A program made the translations under genes and the position numbers. Positions 1,842 through 53,617 of a stretch of DNA of 64,000 nucleotides are shown one piece after another. Positions within the stretch are counted from its first letter, which is position 1. Each line of letters opens with the position of its first letter. This stretch comes from an uncultured Monoglobus sp. (lineage in GTDB: Bacteria > Bacillota > Clostridia > Monoglobales > Monoglobaceae), in assembly GCA_947630135.1 (NCBI GenBank), contig CANRGH010000001.1, positions 1 to 64,000 on the forward strand, in the 5' to 3' direction. The notes below the pieces were generated by a model. It was not told the DNA's origin. It did not search any database and worked only from the letters and a program-made list of their open reading frames with translations.

Positions 1842-1892
1842 TTGACAAATATAACTACATATTGTAGAATATACTTATCTACACAGTGTAGA
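1842..1892 (+). promoter_or_regulatory. Promoter with two BlaI/MecI-type operators
   Basis: -35 TTGACA (1842-1847), a 17-nt spacer and -10 TAGAAT (1865-1870). Two dyads of identical consensus CTACA-N3-TGTAG lie at 1855-1867 (overlapping the -10) and 1879-1891 (in the leader). Their centres are 24 bp apart. BlaI/MecI repressors bind TACA/TGTA dyads, so the first gene of the operon very likely autorepresses here. Confidence 0.88.
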
Positions 1893-1912: not shown

Positions 1913-2269
1913 ATGAAGATTTCGGAATCGGAAATGGAAGTTATGAAAATCATCTGGGGCAAAAAGGGCGAAGCGGTGACGACCGCCTACATCCTTGACA
2001 GTCTCAAAACACCCTGGAAGCACACTACGGTGCTCACATTTTTAAAGCGGCTCTGCGACAAGGGCGTTTTAAAGTGCGAGCGCATCGGCAAAGCAAATTT
2101 ATACTCCCCGCTCATCAGCGAGAGAGAGTATAAGAACGCACAGACAAAAGAGTTCATGTCGGAGCTCCACTCGGGCTCGGTCAAGAATTTTCTGACCGCG
2201 CTCTACGGGGACAAGCGTCCGACCAAGGATGAGATCAACGAGATAAAAGAGTGGTTCGAGGGGGTGTAG
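1913..2269 (+). CDS. BlaI/MecI-family transcriptional repressor
   Basis: This 118-aa winged-helix repressor has the usual family length and opening (SESEMEVMKIIWGKKGEAVT), followed by the recognition-helix region WKHTTVLTFLKRLCDKGVL. The C-terminal helices serve for dimerisation. The family dimer is inactivated by proteolysis triggered by a partner M56 peptidase, which is the next gene 4 nt downstream. An AGGT-type SD precedes the ATG. Two CTACA-N3-TGTAG operators lie in its promoter, so autoregulation is expected. Regulation of the downstream SLH array is possible but not shown. Confidence 0.92.
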   Translation: MKISESEMEVMKIIWGKKGEAVTTAYILDSLKTPWKHTTVLTFLKRLCDKGVLKCERIGKANLYSPLISEREYKNAQTKEFMSELHSGSVKNFLTALYGDKRPTKDEINEIKEWFEGV

Positions 2270-2273
2270 TCAA

Positions 2274-3953
2274 ATGACGGAACTGCTTCACAAACTGCTG
2301 ATATGCACGGTAAGCGGAAGCATCATGTTCGGTCTCGGCACCTTGTTTAACTTAAAATTCAGAAAGAGCAGCATGTCGCGCTGGTACTACGGCATAATCA
2401 TTTTGTCATTGATAATGCTGCTGGTGCCCCTTGAGTTCGGCGGCCTTACGCCGAAGCTCATAAACGTGACGGTGCCGCGCAGGCTGACAGAGGCTCCTCT
2501 TCCTCCTCCGCCGAACGGCGCCGCGGTCGGCGCAGCGCGAATATCGCCGATCGCGGTAATATTCGCAATTTGGCTCACGGTGGCGCTGATTTTGGCGGCC
2601 CGCGCCGTAATAATGTATTTCCGTGCGCGAAGAACGATCAAGCGGATCTCGCGCCCCTGCGAGGATCCCGAGGCGCTCCGCGTCTGCGAAAAGCTCCGCG
2701 GGCAGCTCAAAATACGCAAAAAAGTCCGCGTCATGGTCAGCGGCGGCACACAGTCGCCCCTGCTGTTCGGGATTTTAAGGCCAGAAATAATCATACCCGA
2801 CCGCGATTTTGACAGCGAGAGCCTGAGGCTTATTTTCGCCCATGAGCTGACCCACCTCAAGCACCACGACCTTCCGGTCAAGCTGCTGGGTCTTGCGGCG
2901 GGCTGTGTTCACTGGTTCAACCCGATCATCTATCCTCTCAGGAAATCGCTGAATACGGTTTGCGAGCTGTGCTGCGACGAGTCGGTGCTCCGCAGACTGA
3001 AGCTCAACGACAACAAGGACTACGGCAGGCTGATCATTTCGGTGGTCGAGGACAGCGGCCCGAGCTACGCCGCGTATTCAACTTCCATGGCCTCGGCCAA
3101 AAAGAGCATGAAAAAGCGGCTTTCGAGAATAGCGCACTTCAAAGAAATAACCGGAGCGCTCAAAATGATTAGCGTGCTGACGGCGGGCGCGCTGACGGTG
3201 TGCAGTCTGACGGCGTTCGGCTTTACCCAGGCAGCCGAGATCATGCCCGAGGAGATCGCGCCCGTGTTTGAGGGAAAGGGAAAATCGGTCATAAGCAAAT
3301 TCTCGGCCGAAGCTCCCGCGACGCCGCTGCCCGCGGCCGAGTTACACCCGGACGAACCGGGGCCCGACGCGGAGACTACGGACGCGGCGCGCGTGGAGAA
3401 CGCGGCACCGAGCGACGCAAACGTTTCACAAACCGGGACGGAAAACACCGCGAATGAACAGTCGTTTTATGAACCGTCTTCCGAAGAACAATTGTCCGCA
3501 GAACCCGAAGCGCAGTCGTCCGCGGAACAATTGTCCGTAGAACCCGAACCGCAGTCGTCAAGCGACCGCGCAACTGTTCGCGAGGCTCCGGCGGCTCCCG
3601 CGTCACCCACGACTGTCCCGGCCGTTGAAGCGCCGCGGCCCGAGACAGTAAAAGTGCCGGGCGTGTCGTCTTATGTGCTGAACCTTGAATACGGCACGGA
3701 CGGAAAGGCGTCAACCCCCATACTCGAAGCGGCAAGCACCGCGAAGATCGGGTTCACGCTGACCGCACGGGCGGGCGCGGTTGAGATTTACAAATGCGAC
3801 GCTTACGGAAACGCCGCCGAGCTTATCTACGGAGACGACAAAAGCTCCGTCACGTCGTTCAAGCTTCCCGTCACCAAAGGCGAATATTTCTACGCGGTTT
3901 TCGGAAAAGACGAAATTGATGAGAGCAATTCAAACACGCTGATAATCAAGTGA
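2274..3953 (+). CDS. BlaR1-like M56 membrane metallopeptidase with atypical ectodomain
   Basis: The 559-aa protein starts with membrane helices (to ~residue 120). It carries a cytosolic M56 zinc peptidase with HELTH near residue 189 and the downstream Glu in CELCCDES. A final transmembrane helix lies near residue 310 (LTAGALTVCSLTAFGF). In known systems this protease cleaves BlaI after ligand sensing. The penicillin-binding sensor of classical BlaR1 is absent. Instead there is a ~130-residue Pro/Glu/Ala/Ser-rich linker with repeats of the type QLS(A/V)EPE, then a ~95-residue C-terminal module (~465-559). That module matches the free secreted protein at 8127-8501 in pattern (I-Y/F-K-C, SFK, GEY-F/Y-Y, terminal LIIK). 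The ligand is unknown and is probably an envelope signal rather than a beta-lactam. Confidence 0.88.
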   Translation: MTELLHKLLICTVSGSIMFGLGTLFNLKFRKSSMSRWYYGIIILSLIMLLVPLEFGGLTPKLINVTVPRRLTEAPLPPPPNGAAVGAARISPIAVIFAIWLTVALILAARAVIMYFRARRTIKRISRPCEDPEALRVCEKLRGQLKIRKKVRVMVSGGTQSPLLFGILRPEIIIPDRDFDSESLRLIFAHELTHLKHHDLPVKLLGLAAGCVHWFNPIIYPLRKSLNTVCELCCDESVLRRLKLNDNKDYGRLIISVVEDSGPSYAAYSTSMASAKKSMKKRLSRIAHFKEITGALKMISVLTAGALTVCSLTAFGFTQAAEIMPEEIAPVFEGKGKSVISKFSAEAPATPLPAAELHPDEPGPDAETTDAARVENAAPSDANVSQTGTENTANEQSFYEPSSEEQLSAEPEAQSSAEQLSVEPEPQSSSDRATVREAPAAPASPTTVPAVEAPRPETVKVPGVSSYVLNLEYGTDGKASTPILEAASTAKIGFTLTARAGAVEIYKCDAYGNAAELIYGDDKSSVTSFKLPVTKGEYFYAVFGKDEIDESNSNTLIIK

Positions 3954-4000
3954 CAAGCGTGACACCCAAAGGATCTGGGCACGAATATTGACTGGCCTGC

Positions 4001-4235
4001 GGGCGGCCGAGGTCGTCCGCCCCTACGGTGTAGGGCAGCATGCCCACATGCCGCCGGCCGGATGTGGGCATCCGGCCCTACAACGATGGAGGATGTAAAT
4101 CGGGCGGATAATATCCGCCCCTACGGGTGCCTGTGATGTACCATATCGTCGCAGCCGTGCAAACTCCGCCAATCCTGTAGGGGCGGCAATCTGCCGCCCG
4201 TTCTATTCACTATTCGCTAATCACTAATCACTACG
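4001..4235. repeat. REP/BIME-like repeat block A
   Basis: Five GTAG-headed GC-rich hairpins lie in alternating orientation: 4001-4026 (-), 4030-4055 (+), 4056-4081 (-, abutting the previous one), 4102-4124 (-) and 4177-4200 (+). An AT-rich tract of ctaatcacta-type words (4203-4235) then runs into the ribosome binding site of the next gene. The ~100-bp unit 4102-4200 recurs at 6013-6111 and 10359-10457. GTAG followed by a palindrome is the hallmark of REP sequences mobilised by RAYT Y1 transposases. No such transposase is present here. Bases 3954-4000 hold nothing I can identify. Confidence 0.8.
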
Positions 4236-4252
4236 TTGAAAGAAGGATTTAT

Positions 4253-5935
4253 ATGAAAATTTTAAATAAAATACTATCGTTATTAATTTCCGCCGCGGTT
4301 CTGGCTTCGGTGTGCGGCGGGCTTTCGGCCTTCGCGGCCGAGCCTCCGGTAACCGGCGCCCGACTTAAGGAAATGGCGGAATGCCGCAAACTGAGCGACT
4401 CTCCCGACGCGGAGCAAATTCTGAACATGGAATACCAAGACCAAAACCCCGAGCTTGCCGTGACCGAACAAAAAGTCGAAAAAGTCGGTGATTATATTGA
4501 CCCGGACTCGGCGTTTATGATGTATTTAACTCCCGCTCAGGGCATCACCAAATTTTTCAGAGACGGAGGCGGAAACGCAAAATCATTCGCCGAAGCCTTT
4601 GATTTATTCAAAAATTCCGAATACTGCATCGAGGAATACTGGCAGAGGGTCGAGCCGTTTTACGACGAGCACGGCCAGCTTATGAACGCGAGAAATTTTG
4701 AGGTCCAATATTCGGACGGAAAACTCAATGACATCATGCCGCCGGCCGCCGCCGACTTCCGGTTTGAGGACAAATACTACGACTTGGCCGCGGAGGCCGT
4801 GAACAAAAGCGATATTCGGGATGTCAGCGCCGTTTACACTTTCATGAACGAGATCGCTCTCGACACCGACAAAGGCAGCTTCGTTATGCCCTGCGAAACC
4901 GTGACGAACGGATACGCCGCATATCTGGGATACGGCGAGATAAAGCTGGAGGGCGGAACGCTCTATCCCGTTTTGGATTACGACAATTTTTACAGTCTTC
5001 TGTCTCAATACGCGGGCGTGGCCTCCGAGCATTTTGAAAAACGCGTAAGAGAGGCAATAGGCGGTATGCCCACGCAGACCGAGGTTGAGCAATGCGGCGC
5101 GAGTTATCCCGAGGACACGGACAGCTTTTCGCGATATATAGGCACCGAGCCGCGATACTCCGACATAACGGCGGAGCAAGCGGCAGTGACCAATCAGATG
5201 AGCGACCTCGGCGTTATCACCGGGGAAAACGGATACTTCAGGCCTAACGACCGTGTGACCCGCGCCGAGACCGCGGCCATGCTTTGCAGGCTGTTTGATA
5301 TCGAGCCGTCCGTAAGCAGCGGATTTTCGGACGTTCCGGATGAATATTGGGCGGCGGGTTACATCGCCTCACTCGCGGAGCAGGGAGTGATCAACGGTTT
5401 CGAGGACGGCTCGTTCGGGCCCGAGGAGCCCGTGACATATGAGCAGGCGCTGAAAATGATCGAAAACCTGCTGGGCTACTCATCGCAAAGCACATTAACA
5501 TACGGCGAATATCCGGAAGGCGAGATAATTGTCGGAGCCATGCTGGGTCTTACCGACGACATGCCCGGATTTGACTCCGCCGACCCCGTATCGCGGATCG
5601 AAACGGCGTGTATACTGAGCCGCGCGCTGGACACCCACATTCTTACCGAATGTTATTACTTCACGGGCTCGTCTATGGGCTTCGGCTCCTCCGGCGTTAT
5701 TGACAAAACTCTCGCGGATTAGAAAAACGGCGCGGAACTGAGCGGTGAGTATTTCAGAAGCTCCGCGGCTTTTGAAGCCCGCAAAGAGGCATTGGAAAAC
5801 GAGCTTAACGTGAAATGCGGTGACATTTTCCGCGAATACCATGAGGCGACCGGGCTCATGTCCGGCAAAGTGAGCTTCGGATTGAGAATGATGCCAAAGC
5901 CGATAAAAAGCAACCCCGTACCGCGCATACAATAG
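4253..5935 (+). pseudogene. SLH-domain secreted protein 1, interrupted by in-frame amber codon
   Basis: The reading frame encodes a signal peptide (1-28), a family-specific N-terminal region (~30-290) and SLH units near residues 301, 359 and 419, which normally bind secondary cell-wall polymer. A TAG at 5720-5722 stops it after 489 aa. The same frame continues without another stop to TAG 5933-5935, encoding KNGAELSGEYF... and ending NPVPRIQ. This matches the C-terminal tails of the three downstream paralogs, where the equivalent stop position is Leu. Full length would be 560 codons, as in its neighbour. The truncated product keeps all SLH units and may still work. An SD (GAAAGAAGG) precedes the ATG. 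Confidence 0.88.
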
Positions 5936-5954
5936 GGGATTTGTCCAAAAGCGT

Positions 5955-6150
5955 TCCCACCTCCGTCTTTTCGCCTTACGGCGAAAATCCACCTCCTCCC
6001 CGGAGGAGGCACGGGCGGATAATATCCGCCCCTACGGATGCCTGTGATGTACCATATCGTCACAGCCGTGCAAACTCCGCCAATCCTGTAGGGGCGGCAA
6101 TCTGCCGCCCGTTCTATTCGCTATTCACTAATTACTAATCACTACGTTGG
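5955..6150. repeat. REP/BIME-like repeat block B
   Basis: In order it holds a hairpin centred on TTTTCGCC/GGCGAAAA (about 5968-5988), a CTCCTCC/GGAGGAG hairpin (about 5992-6008), and GTAG-headed hairpins at 6013-6036 (-) and 6088-6111 (+). The same ctattcactaattacta tract as in block A follows, ending at the next SD. The segment 6013-6150 is nearly identical to the matching parts of blocks A and D. Confidence 0.78.
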
Positions 6151-6163
6151 AAGGAAGGATAAT

Positions 6164-7846
6164 ATGAAAAAATTTAAAAAAATTATATTGGCGGCCGTTG
6201 CAGCGGCGGTTGCCCTGACCGCTTTCACATGCACCGCCGTCTCGGCGGCGGAGCGCGTGACCGGCAGACAGATAAAAGAGCTCGCGGAGGTCACGCTGCG
6301 CAGCGAGCCCGATCTGGGAACCATTCTCTCCACCCAATTTGTTCCGTATGACGGCGACGTCACAAACGTCTCCAACTTCGGCGAACTGATCGACCCGAAC
6401 TCCGCGTTTTTGGTTCACTCGAACGCCGAGAGCTACACGCGGCTCATCGGAAACGGAGCCGACAACATAGCCGAGGCGATCGAGCTCTGCGAAAACGGCA
6501 TAAACAGCGGAACGCGATATGACGACTCGAGCGAAAGATGCTATTACCAGCCTCTGCCGGGCTACCCGAACTGCGCGGACTATCCGCAGTTCAGCGGCGC
6601 GGCGGCATACAGACTGAGCCTCAAAAACGGCGAGCCGATCGATCTTACGGTACAGCCCCTATATAACTACTCGGGCGAGTATGACAAAATCGCCGAAGTT
6701 TTAAACAAATTCGGCATCGGCAAACCCGCCGCCGTCTACCTCTTCGGCTCCTCCTTCGGCAACCCGCTCAAATCGGCGGCGTTCGGGATTTCGGTGAGCG
6801 GTGACGAGGAATATATCATCCCCGTCGGCGCCGATCTTGAGGACAATTATTCCGACTCGGCCCTGAAAGCGTATGAGCTCTATGACATAAGGGACTACAA
6901 CGCGTTTTTCGCAAGCCGCGGCGACGCCTCCGACAGCCTGCTCAAAACCGCCGAGCAAGAGCGCCTTGATCTTCTTCCGGGCGTCAGAACGCGCGAGGAG
7001 CTTGTGAAAGCCGACGAGCTTGTCGGCGCGAACGAGACCGACAGCTTTTCAAAATACATAGGCACCGAGCCGCGGTACTCGGACATCACGGCGGGTCAGG
7101 CTGCGGTCACGAACCAACTCACCGATCTCGGCGTGATCAACGGCAGCGACGGAATGTTTTATCCCTCAAGCGACGTGACGCGGGCCGAGACCGCGGCCAT
7201 GCTGTGCAGGCTGTTTGAGATCGCGCCCGAAAGCTCCGTCTCGTTCGGCGACGTTCCGCAAAGCCACTGGGCAGCGGGCTATATCGGAGCGCTCGCGCAA
7301 ATGGGCGTGTTGAGCGGCTTTGGCGACGGAACCTTCCGCCCCGACGAGAGCGTGACATATGAGCAGGCGTTCAAAATGGTCGAGCAGCTTTTGGGATACA
7401 CCCCGAAGGTACTTTTAAGCGTCGGCAGCGAATATCCCGCGGCGAACGTGCTGGCGGCGGTTCGTCTGGGGCTCGCGGGCGACCTCGGAAACTTTGATTC
7501 GGCGGACGCCATATCGAGGATCGAGCTTGCATGCGTGCTGAGCCGCGCGCTTGACACGCATATGGCGACGGTCGAGGTGTTTATCGAAAACCTCACCTCG
7601 GGAACGTATTACTTCACCGACGTGACGCTGAGCGACCTCAAAAACGGCGCCGCCCTCACCGGAAAGCTCTGCGTGAGCGACGAGGAGCTGCTTGAATACA
7701 CAAACGCGCTCAAGAACGAGTATGCCGAAAAGACAAAATATATTATTGACGAGACCGTCAGAAAAGTCGGCGGAATGGGAGTGATCGCCGACGGCGGCAT
7801 GATCCTACCCCCAGCCCCGAAAAATATACCGAGGACAACAACATAG
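6164..7846 (+). CDS. SLH-domain secreted protein 2
   Basis: This 560-aa paralog has a signal peptide (MKKFKKIILAAVAAAVALTA...), the shared N-terminal family region beginning VTGRQIKELAE, and the block YIGTEPRYSDITAGQAAVTN that opens the first SLH unit (~300). A second SLH unit (DVPQSHWAAGYIGALAQMG) and a degenerate third follow, then a ~90-residue tail ending IPRTTT. SLH units anchor proteins non-covalently to pyruvylated wall polymers. Here they are internal rather than terminal, which is unusual. The SD GGAAGGAAGG precedes the ATG. The gene belongs to a tandem array of four paralogs separated by REP blocks. Confidence 0.88.
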   Translation: MKKFKKIILAAVAAAVALTAFTCTAVSAAERVTGRQIKELAEVTLRSEPDLGTILSTQFVPYDGDVTNVSNFGELIDPNSAFLVHSNAESYTRLIGNGADNIAEAIELCENGINSGTRYDDSSERCYYQPLPGYPNCADYPQFSGAAAYRLSLKNGEPIDLTVQPLYNYSGEYDKIAEVLNKFGIGKPAAVYLFGSSFGNPLKSAAFGISVSGDEEYIIPVGADLEDNYSDSALKAYELYDIRDYNAFFASRGDASDSLLKTAEQERLDLLPGVRTREELVKADELVGANETDSFSKYIGTEPRYSDITAGQAAVTNQLTDLGVINGSDGMFYPSSDVTRAETAAMLCRLFEIAPESSVSFGDVPQSHWAAGYIGALAQMGVLSGFGDGTFRPDESVTYEQAFKMVEQLLGYTPKVLLSVGSEYPAANVLAAVRLGLAGDLGNFDSADAISRIELACVLSRALDTHMATVEVFIENLTSGTYYFTDVTLSDLKNGAALTGKLCVSDEELLEYTNALKNEYAEKTKYIIDETVRKVGGMGVIADGGMILPPAPKNIPRTTT

Positions 7847-7848
7847 GG

Positions 7849-8110
7849 ACTAGGGAATAGAGACTAGGGACTAGGTTCCCACCTCCGTCTGCGGCAAGCC
7901 GCAGACACCTCCTCCCCGGAGGAGGCACGGGCGGATAATATCCGCCCGCGGGACGCCGAGGTCGTCGTCCCCTACAACCAAAGTACGCAAAACGCCGTAG
8001 GGGCGGACGACCCGGCCGCCCGTCATTAAAACGAACGCGGGAAATACGCGAATGTTTTTCGCCAAACTGTCTCCGCGTATTCGCTATTCGCTAATTGCTA
8101 ATCACCACGT
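7849..8110. repeat. REP/BIME-like repeat block C
   Basis: It begins with short CTAGGGA tandem words (7849-7876), then a TCTGCGG/CCGCAGA hairpin and the CTCCTCC/GGAGGAG hairpin. GTAG-headed hairpins follow on both strands (about 7929-7948, 7951-7975 and 7997-8025). The attcgctaattgctaatcac tract (8082-8109) abuts the next SD. The composition differs from blocks A, B and D, so it is a re-assortment of the same modules. Confidence 0.72.
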
Positions 8111-8126
8111 TGAAAGGATGAATAAT

Positions 8127-8501
8127 ATGAAAAACCACAAAAAATTGCTGTTATCCGCAGCCGCGGTCTTATTGATCGCTTTCGGCGGAACATCCGCGCT
8201 CGCCGCGGAGACAATAACACTGCCCGCAAAATCGGTCTATGTCATGACATGCGCCGACGACGGCACAACCCCGGTGCTTGAGATGAGCGAGAGCAAAAGC
8301 GTCTCGGTCACCTCGCTGAACCAAATAAGCTCGCTGCGGATATTCAAATGCGAAAAGGACGGCAAAAACCCCGAATGTATATATGAAAACGACAGCGAAA
8401 CGCGCAGCTCTTTCAAAATAAATGTAAAGCGCGGCGAATACTACTACTTCAAAATCAAATGCTCGGGCAGCGGCGAACATGAAAAACTTATTATAAAATA
8501 G
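8127..8501 (+). CDS. Small secreted protein related to the BlaR1-like ectodomain
   Basis: A 124-aa protein with a clear signal peptide (MKNHKKLLLSAAAVLLIAFG...ALAAE) and a ~95-residue compact domain. The ATG at 8127 is chosen because AAAGGATG lies 8-14 nt upstream and the extra N-terminal residues of a longer frame fall in repeat DNA. The domain shares the pattern I-F-K-C, IYxND, SSFKINV, GEYYY and the exact C-terminus LIIK with residues ~465-559 of the M56 protein at 2274-3953. The gene lies between SLH paralogs and has a 13-nt gap to the next one. It may be a decoy, ligand or partner for the sensor, or a stand-alone beta-sandwich envelope protein. Its function is unknown. Confidence 0.82.
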   Translation: MKNHKKLLLSAAAVLLIAFGGTSALAAETITLPAKSVYVMTCADDGTTPVLEMSESKSVSVTSLNQISSLRIFKCEKDGKNPECIYENDSETRSSFKINVKRGEYYYFKIKCSGSGEHEKLIIK

Positions 8502-8514
8502 GAGGTTGGATAAT

Positions 8515-10275
8515 ATGAAAAAATTCAGAAAAATTATTTCGGCGGCGCTTGCCGCGGCGGTCGCGCTGACCGCTTTCGCAGGCCTCACCGTCTCGGCGGA
8601 GGGAAACATAACCGCCGCGCGGCTCAAGGAGCTCGCGGAGAGCCGCAAGCTTATCGACAGGCCCGACGCGGAGCAGATACTTGATTATGAGTACGCCGAA
8701 GGCAAAACCACATTCACGCTTGAAGACATAGACAAGATTGACCCCATCACGCGCGAATATGTCTATGACATCACGGAAGAGCGGCCCGCGCCCACAAAAA
8801 TCGGCGATATACCGGGCATCGAGACGGCGTTCCTCTGCGGCCCTTCGGCAGAGGTCATTGCGGAAGGACTCGGAAACGGCAAGAGCTTTGACGAAATCAT
8901 GAGCGAGCATGATAATCAGTATTGCATTGTCACCGATCAAAAAAGCCCCGCGCTGAACGATCCGCCCGAAGGCCCGTACACCGGCGCGGTCACAAAAGAG
9001 ATAAACGTCAACTATTACGCGGCGGACGAAAACGGAGACCTCCGCGAAGCAAGCAAGGCCGAGGGCAGCCTTCGGGTCGACTTCCACGACACGAGCGTTT
9101 TTGACTTCGGGAATGCGTATGACAAGATCGCCGACGCTCTGATCGACGCGGGCTGCAAGTCGGTTGACGACGCCTGTATCGAGAGCGGAACAGGAATAAG
9201 CGTTTCCACGGACATCGGATGCATGTATGTGCCCGTTCGGGATTTGAGCGGGAAAGTGGCCGAATACATAGGTGAAAACATTGGCGACATCAACGCTTTT
9301 GAGGCGTATAAAATAGGCGACTATGTAAAATTCTTGGAGCTACGCGACGAGGCGAGCCTGAAAGCGTCCGAGCTGCTCGGCAAAAAACTGCGCGAAAAAA
9401 TGCCCGACTCGCTTGACACCAACAGCTATAAACCGGACACAACGTTCGGCGAGGCGACCGACTGCTTCTCAAAATATATCGGCACCGAGCCCCAATATTC
9501 CGACATAAGCGACGGACAGGCTGCGGTCACCAACCAACTCACCGACATGGGAATAATCAACGGCTCGGACGGAAAATTCCGCCCGAATGACAACGTCACC
9601 CGAGCCGAGACCGCGGCGATAATATGCAGGCTGCTCAGGATCGAGCCGAATATAACGGGAAAATTTGATGATGTTCCCGACGAATATTGGGCGGCCGGAT
9701 ATATTGGCGCTCTCGCGGAGCAGGGCATGATCGACGGGACCGCCGACGGTCTGTTCTCGCCCGAGGAAAGCGTGACATACGAGCAGGCGCTGAAAATTAT
9801 CATAACCCTGCTTGGTTACGCCGGAAATCAAACCGACTACTACGGCGGCTTCCCAACGGGATTTTTAAAGCTCGGCATCGACCTTGGCCTGATCGACGAC
9901 TGCGGCAGCTTTGACTCGGGCGGCGCTATATCAAGAATTGAGCTCGCCTGCGTGATAAGCCGCGCCCTTGACACAAGGCTTTCCACAACGACTGTCGGAG
10001 TCGGCGGTTTCGGAGCCCAAATATACGAGATCGCGGACGTCACATTGTACGGATATTTAAACGGCGCCGAGCTTCGCGGAGAGCTGCTGCGCGGCGCGGA
10101 CGAAAAGGAAGCGTTTAAAGAGCGGAAGTCTGCCGAGTATGCCGAAAAATGCGGCGGCATCATTGACGAATTCAAAAATATCACACAGTCGAGCATGACG
10201 CTCGTGAAAGAGATAAACGGCATAATGGTTGCAAAGCTTGAAAAATACAACCCCGTTCCGAGGAGCACAACATAG
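8515..10275 (+). CDS. SLH-domain secreted protein 3
   Basis: 586 aa from the ATG at 8515 (GGAGG at 8501-8505; a TTG three codons earlier is too close to the SD). The signal peptide and the following AEGNITAARLKELAES are shared with paralog 4, pointing to recent duplication or gene conversion. The N-terminal family region is longer than in the others. SLH units start at YIGTEPQYSDISDGQAAVTN, FDDVPDEYWAAGYIGALAEQ and a degenerate third. The tail ends NPVPRSTT. It sits 13 nt after the small secreted gene, so the two are probably co-transcribed. Confidence 0.88.
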   Translation: MKKFRKIISAALAAAVALTAFAGLTVSAEGNITAARLKELAESRKLIDRPDAEQILDYEYAEGKTTFTLEDIDKIDPITREYVYDITEERPAPTKIGDIPGIETAFLCGPSAEVIAEGLGNGKSFDEIMSEHDNQYCIVTDQKSPALNDPPEGPYTGAVTKEINVNYYAADENGDLREASKAEGSLRVDFHDTSVFDFGNAYDKIADALIDAGCKSVDDACIESGTGISVSTDIGCMYVPVRDLSGKVAEYIGENIGDINAFEAYKIGDYVKFLELRDEASLKASELLGKKLREKMPDSLDTNSYKPDTTFGEATDCFSKYIGTEPQYSDISDGQAAVTNQLTDMGIINGSDGKFRPNDNVTRAETAAIICRLLRIEPNITGKFDDVPDEYWAAGYIGALAEQGMIDGTADGLFSPEESVTYEQALKIIITLLGYAGNQTDYYGGFPTGFLKLGIDLGLIDDCGSFDSGGAISRIELACVISRALDTRLSTTTVGVGGFGAQIYEIADVTLYGYLNGAELRGELLRGADEKEAFKERKSAEYAEKCGGIIDEFKNITQSSMTLVKEINGIMVAKLEKYNPVPRSTT

Positions 10276-10498
10276 GGACTAGGTTCTAGGTTCTAGGTTC
10301 CCACCTCCGTCTTTTCGCCGTCGGCGAAAATCCACCTCCTCCCCGGAGGAGGCGGATCGGGCGGACAATATCCGCCCCTACGGGTGCCTGTGATGTATCA
10401 TATCGCCACAGCCGTGCAAACTCCGCCAAACCCGTAGGGGCGGCAATCTGCCGCCCGTTCTAATCACTATTCACTAATTACTAATTACTACATTGGAA
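10276..10498. repeat. REP/BIME-like repeat block D
   Basis: Tandem ctaggtt words (10277-10299) are followed by the TTTTCGCC/GGCGAAAA and CTCCTCC/GGAGGAG hairpins. GTAG-headed hairpins lie at 10359-10381 (-) and 10434-10457 (+). The attcactaattactaattacta tract ends at the SD of the next gene. The arrangement is the same as block B. Confidence 0.78.
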
Positions 10499-10509
10499 GG
10501 AAGGATAAT

Positions 10510-12201
10510 ATGAAAAATTTTAAAAAAATTATATCAACGGCCGTTGCAGCGGCGGTCGCGCTGACCGCTTTCGCTGGGCTCACGGTCTCGGCGGAAGGAA
10601 ACATCACCGCCGCGCGGCTCAAGGAGCTCGCGGAGAGCGACACTCTTGACAAAAGCCCGTATGCGGCCGAGGTTTTAGAACAAACCTACATGGTACCCGG
10701 CGCTGACGTGCTTGAATCGAGCGGCAGGATCGGCGACATTATCGACCCGAAAAAAGCCTTTGCAGCTTACGGTGACGCGTTTGATGTTACCAAGTTTTTT
10801 GAAGCCGACAACGGCGGCTCGAAAAATTTTGACGAGGCGATCGCGGCGCAGCAGTTTTCCTTTATCGGCAATAAATCCGATATTTCAACGGAATACTACG
10901 TCCGGATTGAGCCGACCGTGAACGCGGACGGCGCCAGGTCAAACGCTGTCAGTGTTTTTGTAAACACTCTTAACGGAAAGCTTTACACTAACCTTAACAC
11001 AAACCAATCAATATTTATTGATAACGAGGAATACGAAAAAGCCGCCGAGCTGATCAACGACAGCAATATCGGAACGCCGGTCAAGGCCTATATATTCAGC
11101 TCGAGCCATATGCTTGGTGTTGAGACCGACACGGGATGCTATATTATTCCGTTCATGAAATATGATGATCCTTACGCGTCTTATCTTGGCGAAGATGACG
11201 GCACAATAGAAACCGACCGAATTTACACCGTTAATGAATATAACGCCCGAAAAACGGGCGCGGCCGATAATGAGGCAAGGGCCCGCGCGCTTTTGACACA
11301 AAAAATCCACGAGGCGCTGCCCGACATAAAAACCGCCGACGAGCTTAACGCCATTCTTGAAAACAACAAAACAGGCGGCAGTGACAGCTTTTCAAAGTAC
11401 ATAGGCACCGAGCCGCGGTACAGTGACGTCACGGCAGGTCAGGCTGCGGTCACTAACCAAATGAGCGACTTCAATGTTATTACAGGCGAAAACGGTTTGT
11501 TCAGGCCCGACGACAATGTTACACGCGCGGAAACCGCGGCCATGCTTTGCAGACTGTTTGAGATCGAGCCATCCGAAACAGCCGGCTTTCCCGACGTACC
11601 CTCATCTCACTGGGCCGCGGGATATATCGGAGCTTTGGCAAACGAGGGCATCATCAACGGATTTGATGACGGAACCTTCCGCCCCGACGACAGCGTGACA
11701 TATGAACAGGCGGTCAAGATGACGGAAAACCTGCTGGGCTTAACATTTGAAAGCGACATATGGATGTACGGCGAATATCCCGTGGGGAATTTAATTGTCG
11801 CCTCTCAAATCGGACTGACCGACGACCTCGGCAGCTTCGACTCGGGAAGCGCCGCATCAAGAATAGACATGGCCTGTATCCTAAGCCGCGCTTTGGATTT
11901 GGACATAATAACCAATTGCTGTTATCTGGATGAGCTTAACAATGAACTCGGGTTTTACTCCTTAAACGACATAAGCCTGAGCAGTCTCAAAAACGGCGGA
12001 GAACTGACGGGTAAATGGCAGAGAAGCGATCAGGAAAAACAAAAATACGCGGACGAGATCGGAAAAGAATATATCGAAAATTGCGGCGGCGTGATCGACG
12101 AATGGAACGAAAAAACCGGCGGCGCCATGAGCAAGGAAATAACCCTCAGAAAAAACTGCACGCTCAAAAACGCCAACCCTGTTCCGAGGCTCACTGATTA
12201 G
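10510..12201 (+). CDS. SLH-domain secreted protein 4
   Basis: A 563-aa paralog: signal peptide (MKNFKKIISTAVAAAVALTA), N-terminal family region opening EGNITAARLKELAESD, and SLH units from YIGTEPRYSDVTAGQAAVTN (~300), FPDVPSSHWAAGYIGALANE and a weak third unit. The tail ends NPVPRLTD. Codon 3 onward of the signal region is nearly identical to its siblings. The SD GGAAGGAAGG precedes the ATG. It is the last gene of the array and is followed by a strong bidirectional terminator. Confidence 0.88.
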   Translation: MKNFKKIISTAVAAAVALTAFAGLTVSAEGNITAARLKELAESDTLDKSPYAAEVLEQTYMVPGADVLESSGRIGDIIDPKKAFAAYGDAFDVTKFFEADNGGSKNFDEAIAAQQFSFIGNKSDISTEYYVRIEPTVNADGARSNAVSVFVNTLNGKLYTNLNTNQSIFIDNEEYEKAAELINDSNIGTPVKAYIFSSSHMLGVETDTGCYIIPFMKYDDPYASYLGEDDGTIETDRIYTVNEYNARKTGAADNEARARALLTQKIHEALPDIKTADELNAILENNKTGGSDSFSKYIGTEPRYSDVTAGQAAVTNQMSDFNVITGENGLFRPDDNVTRAETAAMLCRLFEIEPSETAGFPDVPSSHWAAGYIGALANEGIINGFDDGTFRPDDSVTYEQAVKMTENLLGLTFESDIWMYGEYPVGNLIVASQIGLTDDLGSFDSGSAASRIDMACILSRALDLDIITNCCYLDELNNELGFYSLNDISLSSLKNGGELTGKWQRSDQEKQKYADEIGKEYIENCGGVIDEWNEKTGGAMSKEITLRKNCTLKNANPVPRLTD

Positions 12202-51581: not shown

Positions 51582-51953
51582 ATGGCAAATTTACCGCAGA
51601 TATCCTCGGCCGAGCTCGAGGTAATGAATGTTTTATGGAAGAACGGCGGATTAATGGGTACCGAGATCGTCAACCTTGTTTCAAAGACCAACAAATGGGG
51701 CGACAAGACGATCCGCACCTTCATCAACCGTCTTGTGGCGAAGAAGGCGATCTCTATCGAGAGAATAAACGGCAGGGCCTTCCGCTACTATCCCGCGATC
51801 GACGAGAAGGAATACAAGGCAAGCGCGACAAAGAATTTCTTAAAGAAAATGTATGACGGCTCACTTAACCTCATGCTCACAGGATTTGTCAACGACAACG
51901 AGCTTTCAAAAAGCGAGATCGACGATTTGAAAAAAATTCTTGACGGTGAATAA
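51582..51953 (+). CDS. BlaI/MecI-family repressor (second copy)
   Basis: 123 aa with the family opening ISSAELEVMNVLWKNGG and recognition region KWGDKTIRTFINRLVAKKAI, then IERINGRAFRYYP. AAAGGAG precedes the ATG. It is followed 2 nt later by its M56 peptidase partner. It resembles the first BlaI-like protein of the window in length and domain layout but is not a near-identical copy. It probably autoregulates this operon. Confidence 0.92.
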   Translation: MANLPQISSAELEVMNVLWKNGGLMGTEIVNLVSKTNKWGDKTIRTFINRLVAKKAISIERINGRAFRYYPAIDEKEYKASATKNFLKKMYDGSLNLMLTGFVNDNELSKSEIDDLKKILDGE

Positions 51954-51955
51954 AA

Positions 51956-53617
51956 ATGATTGTGAAACAGCTTTTTTTGCTGTGCCTGACGGCCGCTCTC
52001 TACGGAAGTATCATGGGCGCCGTTGTTCTCGCGGTTGAAAAACTGCTTAAAGAGCAGCTTACCGCGTCGGCGAAGTTCATGTTCTGGGTCATTGTGACGA
52101 TCAGATTTCTGCTTCCCTTCGCGCCCGAAAGCCGGGCGAGCATTTTCAACCTGCTCCCGGACAGGGCCGACGGCGCCGTCGCGCTGTCGGGCGATAATAT
52201 TGTTGTCAATTTAACGGGTGCGCCCGCCGCGTTCGCCGGCGCCGAGCTTATTCAAATATGCGCTTACATATGGCTGGCAGGGTGCTGCGCGGTCTTTTTG
52301 TGGTTCGCAATCCCGCAGATCGTTATGCAGATCCGCATGTCGCTGCTCCCTAAGGACACCGACGAGCGAATAACGCGCATCCTTGACGACTGCCTGAGGA
52401 AGCTGCGCATAAGCCGCAGAATAACCGCGGTATTCCAGAGCCAGTTCAAAACTCCCGCCCTGACCGGCATAATAAGGCCGAAAATACTGCTGACCGACGA
52501 GGTCAGAAGCTTTCCCGACGAGGACATAAAATACATACTGATGCACGAGCTGTGCCACCACAAGCGTCACGATATTTTATATAAATACACGGCGATAGCG
52601 GTCCGCAGCCTGCACTGGTTCAACCCTTTGGCGTGGCTGTTCACGGGCCGCGCCATGCGCGGCGCCGAGCTTGCCGCCGACGAGAAGGTAATGATGTTCA
52701 TAGGCGACGGCGAGAACAAGGACTACGGCAGAGCGATAATAAACACCTCGGCGCGGCTTTCGGTCTACGGCTTCGGCGCGGTCATGGGCATGGCCGACAA
52801 AAAGAGCGATCTCAGAACACGGATCACGCGGATCTCAAAATTCAAGCGCCCCGGCGCGGCGCTGAGAATAATCGGCGTAACCGCGGTTCTTGTGTTGGGC
52901 GTGACCGGCCTTACCAACGCGAAGCTTCCCGACGCGCTGACTCCCGAACCGGTGTTTGATTTCGGCGTCTCGGGCAGATTTTCTCCGGATATCCCGGACG
53001 AAGCTGTGGCCGCGGCGGCTGACGAGAGCGAGAGCCTTTATTCGCAAAACGCCGCCCTGCAAAACGCGCAGAAGCCGCCTGCGAACGCGCCCGCCGCGGA
53101 AAATACCGCGCGGCAAAATGAACCGCGTCCCGCGCCTCAAAGTGCGGAAACCGCCTCGCGGCCGCAAACCGAAACAGACGCTTCGGTTCCGTCGGGCGGA
53201 TCAAGCGCGGCAGCCTCTCCCGTTCCGACACTCGCGCCGACAAGCGCCCCGGAAGCCGAGGCACCCGAAAACGCGCCCGGCGGCTCTGTGTTCGCCTCCC
53301 GCAGCGACCTGCTTCCCGGCACGACGATAGAAGATGTGGCGGAAAGCGAGGCGGGCGCCGAGGAGTACAGCCTCTCGGCGGGCAAAAATGAGGTCGCGAT
53401 CACCGCCGACCAAAACGGCTCGGCAGACTTTTATATCGAGAGCGCGGTTTCGGACATGATAAGCGTCCGCGTCACAAACGGCGCGGGAGCGACGCTCGGC
53501 AGGATATACATAACTCCGCGGGCGTATAATTCATACACGATAAACGGCCTTGAGGAAAACGAAAAATACATTCTTGAAATTAACACGCCCGCCGACGCGC
53601 GGATGCTGACATACTGA
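51956..53617 (+). CDS. BlaR1-like M56 membrane metallopeptidase (second copy)
   Basis: 553 aa. N-terminal membrane helices lead to the zinc peptidase HELCHHKRHD (~196) with the distal Glu in AELAADEK, and a last membrane helix near 310 (IIGVTAVLVLGVTGL). A ~140-residue Pro/Ala/Glu/Ser-rich linker and a C-terminal beta-rich domain (~465-553: DFYIESAVSDMISVRVTNGA, YILEINTPADARMLTY) follow. As in the first copy, the penicillin-binding sensor is missing. The ectodomain sequence differs from that of copy 1, so a different ligand is likely. A WG-repeat secreted protein follows 39 nt downstream. Confidence 0.87.
   Translation: MIVKQLFLLCLTAALYGSIMGAVVLAVEKLLKEQLTASAKFMFWVIVTIRFLLPFAPESRASIFNLLPDRADGAVALSGDNIVVNLTGAPAAFAGAELIQICAYIWLAGCCAVFLWFAIPQIVMQIRMSLLPKDTDERITRILDDCLRKLRISRRITAVFQSQFKTPALTGIIRPKILLTDEVRSFPDEDIKYILMHELCHHKRHDILYKYTAIAVRSLHWFNPLAWLFTGRAMRGAELAADEKVMMFIGDGENKDYGRAIINTSARLSVYGFGAVMGMADKKSDLRTRITRISKFKRPGAALRIIGVTAVLVLGVTGLTNAKLPDALTPEPVFDFGVSGRFSPDIPDEAVAAAADESESLYSQNAALQNAQKPPANAPAAENTARQNEPRPAPQSAETASRPQTETDASVPSGGSSAAASPVPTLAPTSAPEAEAPENAPGGSVFASRSDLLPGTTIEDVAESEAGAEEYSLSAGKNEVAITADQNGSADFYIESAVSDMISVRVTNGAGATLGRIYITPRAYNSYTINGLEENEKYILEINTPADARMLTY

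Follow-up and report, generated by a model that had tools for sequence, protein, structure and literature searches.

A predicted BlaI/M56 switch over SLH surface proteins in Monoglobus, with a secreted sibling of the sensor domain

The genome of an uncultured Monoglobus, a gut bacterium, encodes a BlaI/M56 pair that, judged from its sequence, is most likely a switch over SLH surface proteins and lacks a penicillin-binding domain. The pair lies in a stretch of 64 kb (referred to as the window) of the 2.35 Mb genome (G000), and the C-terminal domain of its sensor is encoded a second time, as a free secreted protein within an array of SLH genes. M56/BlaI pairs are common in the class, an M56 match having been found in 73 of 118 sampled genomes, and are usually annotated as antibiotic sensors. 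The design described here appears to be a gauge of the cell surface and not of a drug, since the predicted DNA switch precedes other SLH genes. It bears on the question of how Gram-positive bacteria measure and tune the proteins at their surface; a predicted SLH regulon together with a soluble sibling of the sensor domain offers a concrete handle on what orphan receptors sense, and the free domain could be purified and used as bait for the ligand of such a receptor. In the open-access literature we found no paper that joins Monoglobus with an S-layer or SLH proteins and none that joins BlaI/M56 with S-layer control.

Results

A BlaI/M56 pair without a penicillin-binding domain

The locus encodes, in this order, BlaI, the M56 sensor and, at 4253-12201, four SLH proteins; the second and the third SLH gene flank the free gene. 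Its features are:

1842-1891, plus strand: blaI promoter with two operator dyads (TTGACA; CTACATATTGTAG at 1855-1867; CTACACAGTGTAG at 1879-1891)
1913-2269, plus strand: BlaI/MecI-family repressor, 118 aa (Penicillinase_R, E 4e-28; aligns with MecI and BlaI structures)
2274-3953, plus strand: M56 (BlaR1-type) membrane metalloprotease sensor, 559 aa (Peptidase_M56, E 9e-43; BlaR1 structures, E 4e-6; hydropathy)
3234-3638, plus strand: Pro/Glu/Ser/Ala-rich extracellular linker of the sensor, residues 321-455 (65% P/E/S/T/A)
3642-3950, plus strand: C-terminal type I domain of the sensor, 103 aa (alignment with the free protein, profile search)
4253-5722, plus strand: SLH protein 1 of the array, 489 aa (SLH, E 1.8e-19; in-frame stop ahead of the end of its relatives)
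6164-7846, plus strand: SLH protein 2 of the array, 560 aa (SLH, E 1.6e-21)
8127-8501, plus strand: 124-aa secreted protein with the free type I domain (signal peptide, then the domain at 8208-8498; beta-sandwich model, pLDDT 86)
8506-10275, plus strand: SLH protein 3, likely ATG at 8515 (SLH, E 1.4e-17; TAGGAGG overlap with the free gene)
10510-12201, plus strand: SLH protein 4 of the array, 563 aa (SLH, E 5.3e-21)

The genes encoding repressor and sensor are separated by 4 nt. The M56 domain of the sensor is intact in Pfam and in sequence, with the HExxH motif (HELTH) at residue 190. A penicillin-binding (transpeptidase-like) domain was not found in the sensor, Peptidase_M56 being its sole Pfam match, and the NCBIfam BlaR1 model reached 122.6 bits, which is below its cut-off of 400. 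The first-pass annotation had described an outer domain that does not bind penicillin on a long Pro/Glu linker, and both the single Pfam match and the composition of the linker agree with this. By its sequence, the type I sensor is not a BlaR1/MecR1 beta-lactam sensor proper; its ectodomain is predicted to be a short beta sandwich.

The sensor domain is also encoded as a free secreted protein

The mechanical open reading frame of the free protein begins at 8052, and the gene itself was placed at 8127-8501. Smith-Waterman alignment of the final 103 residues of the sensor with the 124-aa secreted protein gave a score of 137, compared with a mean of 26 (sd 4.7) and a maximum of 50 in 5,000 shuffles, which rules out a chance likeness. 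The identity of the two copies is ~35% and their motifs align in one register (free/fused or fused/free: IYKC/IFKC, IYGDD/IYEND, SFKL/SFKI, GEYFY/GEYYY and LIIK/LIIK). The gene coordinates (2274-3953 and 8127-8501) and every shared motif noted earlier were thus confirmed, and the homology proposed for residues ~465-559 proved real, but the domain starts earlier, at about residue 457 (ETVKVPG / ETITLPA). When the whole genome was searched with the free protein (tblastn), it retrieved itself (E 5.5e-79) and the sensor (E 3.5e-11) and no other copy. In searches of Pfam and NCBIfam no family reached its cut-off with the type I domain, and a search of the PDB gave no convincing sequence relative.

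The free gene is coupled to an SLH gene

The four proteins of the array have SLH domains in Pfam and signal-peptide-like N-termini in sequence, and the free protein is indeed encoded inside this array downstream of the sensor, as had been read from the sequence at first. In 6/6 genomes with a free gene, its stop codon TAG also forms the start of the ribosome-binding site, TAGGAGG, of the next SLH gene, whose start codon lies 4-14 nt from that stop. Because of this conserved overlap, the free protein and SLH protein 3 are very probably made together by translational coupling. SLH domains were found in about 60 places of the genome and, therefore, proximity alone proves little. The link to SLH proteins is carried by this coupling and by the shared operators described below, and the design occurs twice in the genome.

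Some further properties of the array were seen. SLH gene 1 has an in-frame TAG (5720-5722) ~70 codons before the end of its orthologues in G004 and G007 (...NPVPRIQ), which is a truncation or an assembly error. The intergenic regions at 3960-4250, 5940-6150, 7850-8110 and 10280-10500 contain palindromic repeat blocks (GGGGCGGCAATCTGCCGCCC, GGCGGATAATATCCGCCC and runs of CTAATCACTA) that recur at about 21.6, 37 and 62.6 kb of the window, like a small dispersed repeat. The array SLH proteins ending at 7846, 10275 and 12201 and their relatives share conserved tails (NIPRTTT, NPVPRSTT, NPVPRLTD, NPVPRITT), perhaps a processing or interaction motif. The SLH repertoire is large for a genome of 2.35 Mb and includes open frames of great length, the longest having 10,597 codons (C2:31417).

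Predicted paired operators precede SLH operons

The CTACATATTGTAG dyad is located between the -35 and the -10 element of the blaI promoter and the CTACACAGTGTAG dyad just past the -10, a layout that is identical in 9/9 genomes with the type I system. At the level of sequence, BlaI has the paired inverted repeats expected of an autoregulated promoter. Sites of the CTACANNNTGTAG type were found twice in the window, both in the blaI promoter, and four times in the whole genome, the other two being in other promoters of the same build. A search of 12 genomes of the genus with the composite double-dyad pattern gave 19 sites and the reversed pattern gave none; the composite pattern was absent from G002, G005 and G011, which are genomes without the sensor. 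All ten non-self sites (10/10) precede operons in which at least one of the first three genes encodes a secreted SLH protein. The predicted targets are:

C3: 227-aa SLH protein; the orthologue in G004 is broken into two frames
C7 and orthologues: one or two secreted proteins, then a 214-220-aa SLH protein
G007: 235-aa SLH protein
G003, G006, G007 and G010: 414-437-aa SLH protein

Since three or more independent groups of SLH operons are hit and the genome has about 60 SLH places, a chance association of operators and SLH operons is unlikely (by a rough estimate under 1 in 1,000). The two secreted proteins of the C7 operon (L133:2857-6149, G000:C7), which precede its SLH protein, have in common a duplicated C-terminal half ending in TGKFMSTFFGDVFDNSDEILNEMGL.

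These results bear out the suggestion that the system is tied to surface proteins, as the operators recur only before SLH operons and every genome with the free gene has it coupled to an SLH gene. The further idea that it senses the envelope gains support from the predicted SLH regulon. A scan of the array revealed no operator within it or ahead of the free gene, and a crude promoter scan gave nothing convincing directly upstream of the array SLH genes. Therefore, co-regulation of the array would depend on read-through from the blaI promoter: array and free gene would be under BlaI only if transcribed from 1842 across about 300 nt of intergenic repeats. In G017, which belongs to another genus, the regulon search matched its own promoter alone.

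The free and the fused domain are older than the genus

The pair recurs in related genomes, as had been anticipated. Both forms are present in six of the 12 genomes of the genus; two have the fused form alone at complete loci (G009, G010), and one has an interrupted fused form (G001), with an in-frame TAA in the linker that is either a sequencing error or a real mutation. Outside the genus, the type I domain turned up once when 51 genomes of the order were searched with a profile; it is fused to M56 in G017, where a protein resembling the array SLH proteins is encoded 125 nt downstream of the sensor. The free copy is absent in G009, G010 and G017, in which the sensor persists. Because it is missing at complete loci in two genomes of the genus and in another genus, the free copy is an accessory to the sensor, dispensable and no obligatory co-receptor.

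Purifying selection acts on the free copy (dN/dS 0.04-0.39), which evolves about half as fast as the fused one, with a dN between clades of about 0.19 versus about 0.42; the fused rows of G008, which are out of register, were left out of the comparison. In a phylogenetic tree free and fused copies split before the genus radiated, but support is weak for most inner branches, and neither the root nor the position of G001 is certain. A recent duplication or gene conversion is not supported, since the two forms are separate groups older than the genus.

This age bears on the possibility that the free domain is a decoy or dimer partner: as a soluble dominant copy it would bind the corresponding domain of the sensor and either dampen or prime signalling, without an external ligand common to both. 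Such pairing would suit two domains with the same fold and the same C-terminal strand, and BlaR1 of S. aureus is a domain-swapped dimer whose sensor domain is shed in soluble form by signal peptidase (PMC9834060). However, copies that diverged before the genus radiated and have ~35% identity left are far apart for homodimer-like pairing, and we consider this explanation improbable.

A second sensor with a sibling, of a different domain type

The same genome encodes, on another contig (L059), a BlaI-M56 pair whose sensor has a different C-terminal beta domain (type II), terminating in KALIY. After this pair comes the gene of a 150-aa secreted protein that has this domain too and likewise ends in KALIY; 7 nt separate it from the gene of a 717-aa protein, in which WG repeats and an SLH domain are found. 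The type II fused/free pair is present in seven genomes of the genus, and in 6/7 the free gene is within 7 nt of an SLH gene. The type I and type II domains have no detectable sequence relationship (hhalign probability 0.2%) and, therefore, the sensor-plus-secreted-sibling design arose, or was rebuilt, twice. A single sequence family is not supported by this comparison; the models of both domains are beta sandwiches, and the two may have a distant origin in common.

The signal peptides of the type II free protein and its SLH neighbour are 58-82% similar over the first 33-45 residues. This, like the repeated intergenic sequences between the genes of the array, is what would be expected if the free protein were a by-product of domain shuffling, its signal peptide coming from an SLH gene and the remainder from a copy of the C-terminal domain of the sensor, and had no role in the circuit. 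But the free copy is old and under purifying selection, its coupling to SLH genes is conserved and there are two cases in one genome, all of which makes a mere by-product very improbable.

A third BlaI-M56 pair is encoded in the window:

51582-53617, plus strand: BlaI (51582-51953) and M56 sensor (51956-53617) with a type II/III fused domain

Its fused domain is related to type II, but no free copy was found at the locus. The type III BlaI promoters (L099-L105; 51450-51581 in the window) have a different dyad, TTAC-N3-CGTAATTAGA, which suggests a separate regulon.

Across the class, a survey of 80 M56 loci yielded 82 sensor C-terminal regions, two of which have a non-M56 homologue nearby. In G103 (L200:3666-6607) an M56 sensor is followed by a lipoprotein that matches the whole ectodomain over 232 residues (E 2e-68), which is an independent case of a sensor with a sibling. 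The other candidate, L230, is weak; it lies at a contig end and a transposase-like gene is in between. Siblings of sensors are rare outside the genus Monoglobus.

Predicted fold

Structure models gave confident beta sandwiches for the type II domain (pLDDT 93) and the type I domain (pLDDT 86). The latter was modelled in its free form; free and fused type I domains are one alignable family, in line with the common fold that the first-pass annotation implied. The nearest solved structures are clostridial C-terminal binding domains, pre-peptidase, collagen-binding and GOLD domains and CBMs, but with a best Z of 9.6 and Foldseek E values > 0.001 these matches give the fold class only, and a sequence match to PPC or collagen-binding domains was not obtained. 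The models suggest a binding role.

With such neighbours, the domain might be an adhesion or carbohydrate-binding module that is shared without cross-talk, the sensor reporting a polysaccharide or a host surface and the free domain being one secreted binder. The ectodomain of RsgI6 offers a precedent: it shares 57% identity with Xyn10D, whose gene is upregulated under the same conditions (PMC4711584). However, Pfam searches of the predicted target SLH proteins revealed neither enzyme nor CBM families, and the coupling of the free gene is specific to SLH genes; we regard this reading as rather unlikely.

Discussion

We consider it plausible, with slightly less than even confidence, that the pair is a proteolytic switch which monitors and adjusts SLH proteins, with the free domain as soluble competing counterpart. 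BlaI would repress its own promoter and a few others by occupying the two dyads that each of them contains. The M56 protease would span the membrane and bind an extracellular ligand with its outer beta-sandwich domain on the long flexible linker; candidates are a segment of an SLH protein or a wall polymer that is also contacted by SLH proteins. A change in occupancy would switch on the inner protease, BlaI would be cleaved, as may be supposed by analogy, and the SLH operons would be expressed. The free domain, co-translated with an SLH protein, would bind the ligand of the sensor, compete with the sensor and close a feedback loop. That free and fused domains have a ligand in common, the direction of the signal and the reading of the array from the BlaI promoter are what we infer; homology, recurrence, translational coupling, operators and SLH targets were obtained by computation.

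We favour this switch as the best explanation because both forms are kept together in six genomes with the free copy better conserved, because coupling to an SLH gene was seen for type I (6/6) as well as for the unrelated type II (6/7), and because double-dyad promoters precede blaI in nine genomes and ten SLH operons. The BlaI proteins of Clostridium thermocellum likewise need two inverted repeats (PMC8457756), the M56 domain and its HExxH motif are intact, and in G017 an SLH-like gene directly follows the sensor, all of which argue in the same direction. More tentatively, BlaI/M56 receptors may gauge SLH proteins by setting the ectodomain in competition with a co-expressed soluble copy. Such a signalling design was not found in the literature searched; it would have been built at least twice in Monoglobus, from domains without sequence kinship, and occasionally elsewhere (the lipoprotein sibling of the whole ectodomain in G103, L200).

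Comparison with known systems

BlaR1-type M56 proteases cleave BlaI directly, under control of the extracellular domain (PMC9834060). The Monoglobus locus resembles BlaR1/BlaI and MecR1/MecI of staphylococci in having a BlaI-family repressor beside an M56 protease with an extracellular C-terminal sensor (PMC9834060) and an autoregulated promoter with dyads. Unlike BlaR1 and MecR1, the Monoglobus sensor has no penicillin-binding domain but, at the end of a long linker, a predicted beta sandwich of 103 aa; the predicted targets are SLH proteins, and the locus also encodes the sensor domain in secreted form. Cleavage by signal peptidase releases the sensor domain of BlaR1 as a soluble piece in S. 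aureus (PMC9834060), whereas in Monoglobus the soluble domain has its own gene.

The regulons of BlaI_0696 and BlaI_1845 in C. thermocellum are small and autoregulated, and each promoter has two inverted repeats (PMC8457756), a build found here as well, but they were read as a beta-lactam response and the S-layer is unmentioned (PMC8457756). In PetP/PetR of cyanobacteria a BlaR1-like protease and a BlaI-like regulator also answer a cue other than a drug (PMC7896320); there, however, copper sensing is proposed, the targets belong to photosynthesis and no mention of a secreted sibling was found in that text (PMC7896320).

Closest in logic are the RsgI/SigI biomass sensors of C. thermocellum, in which an ectodomain has a secreted relative that takes part in the same response (PMC4711584). 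RsgI is an anti-sigma factor, with a cytoplasmic anti-sigma domain and a neighbouring sigma-I gene, with known polysaccharide ligands and without M56 protease or BlaI; since the Monoglobus sensor is an M56 protease beside BlaI, the likeness is one of logic only. The BlaI/M56 kind of system is already known, and what appears to set the Monoglobus system apart are its predicted SLH targets and the secreted sibling of its sensor domain.
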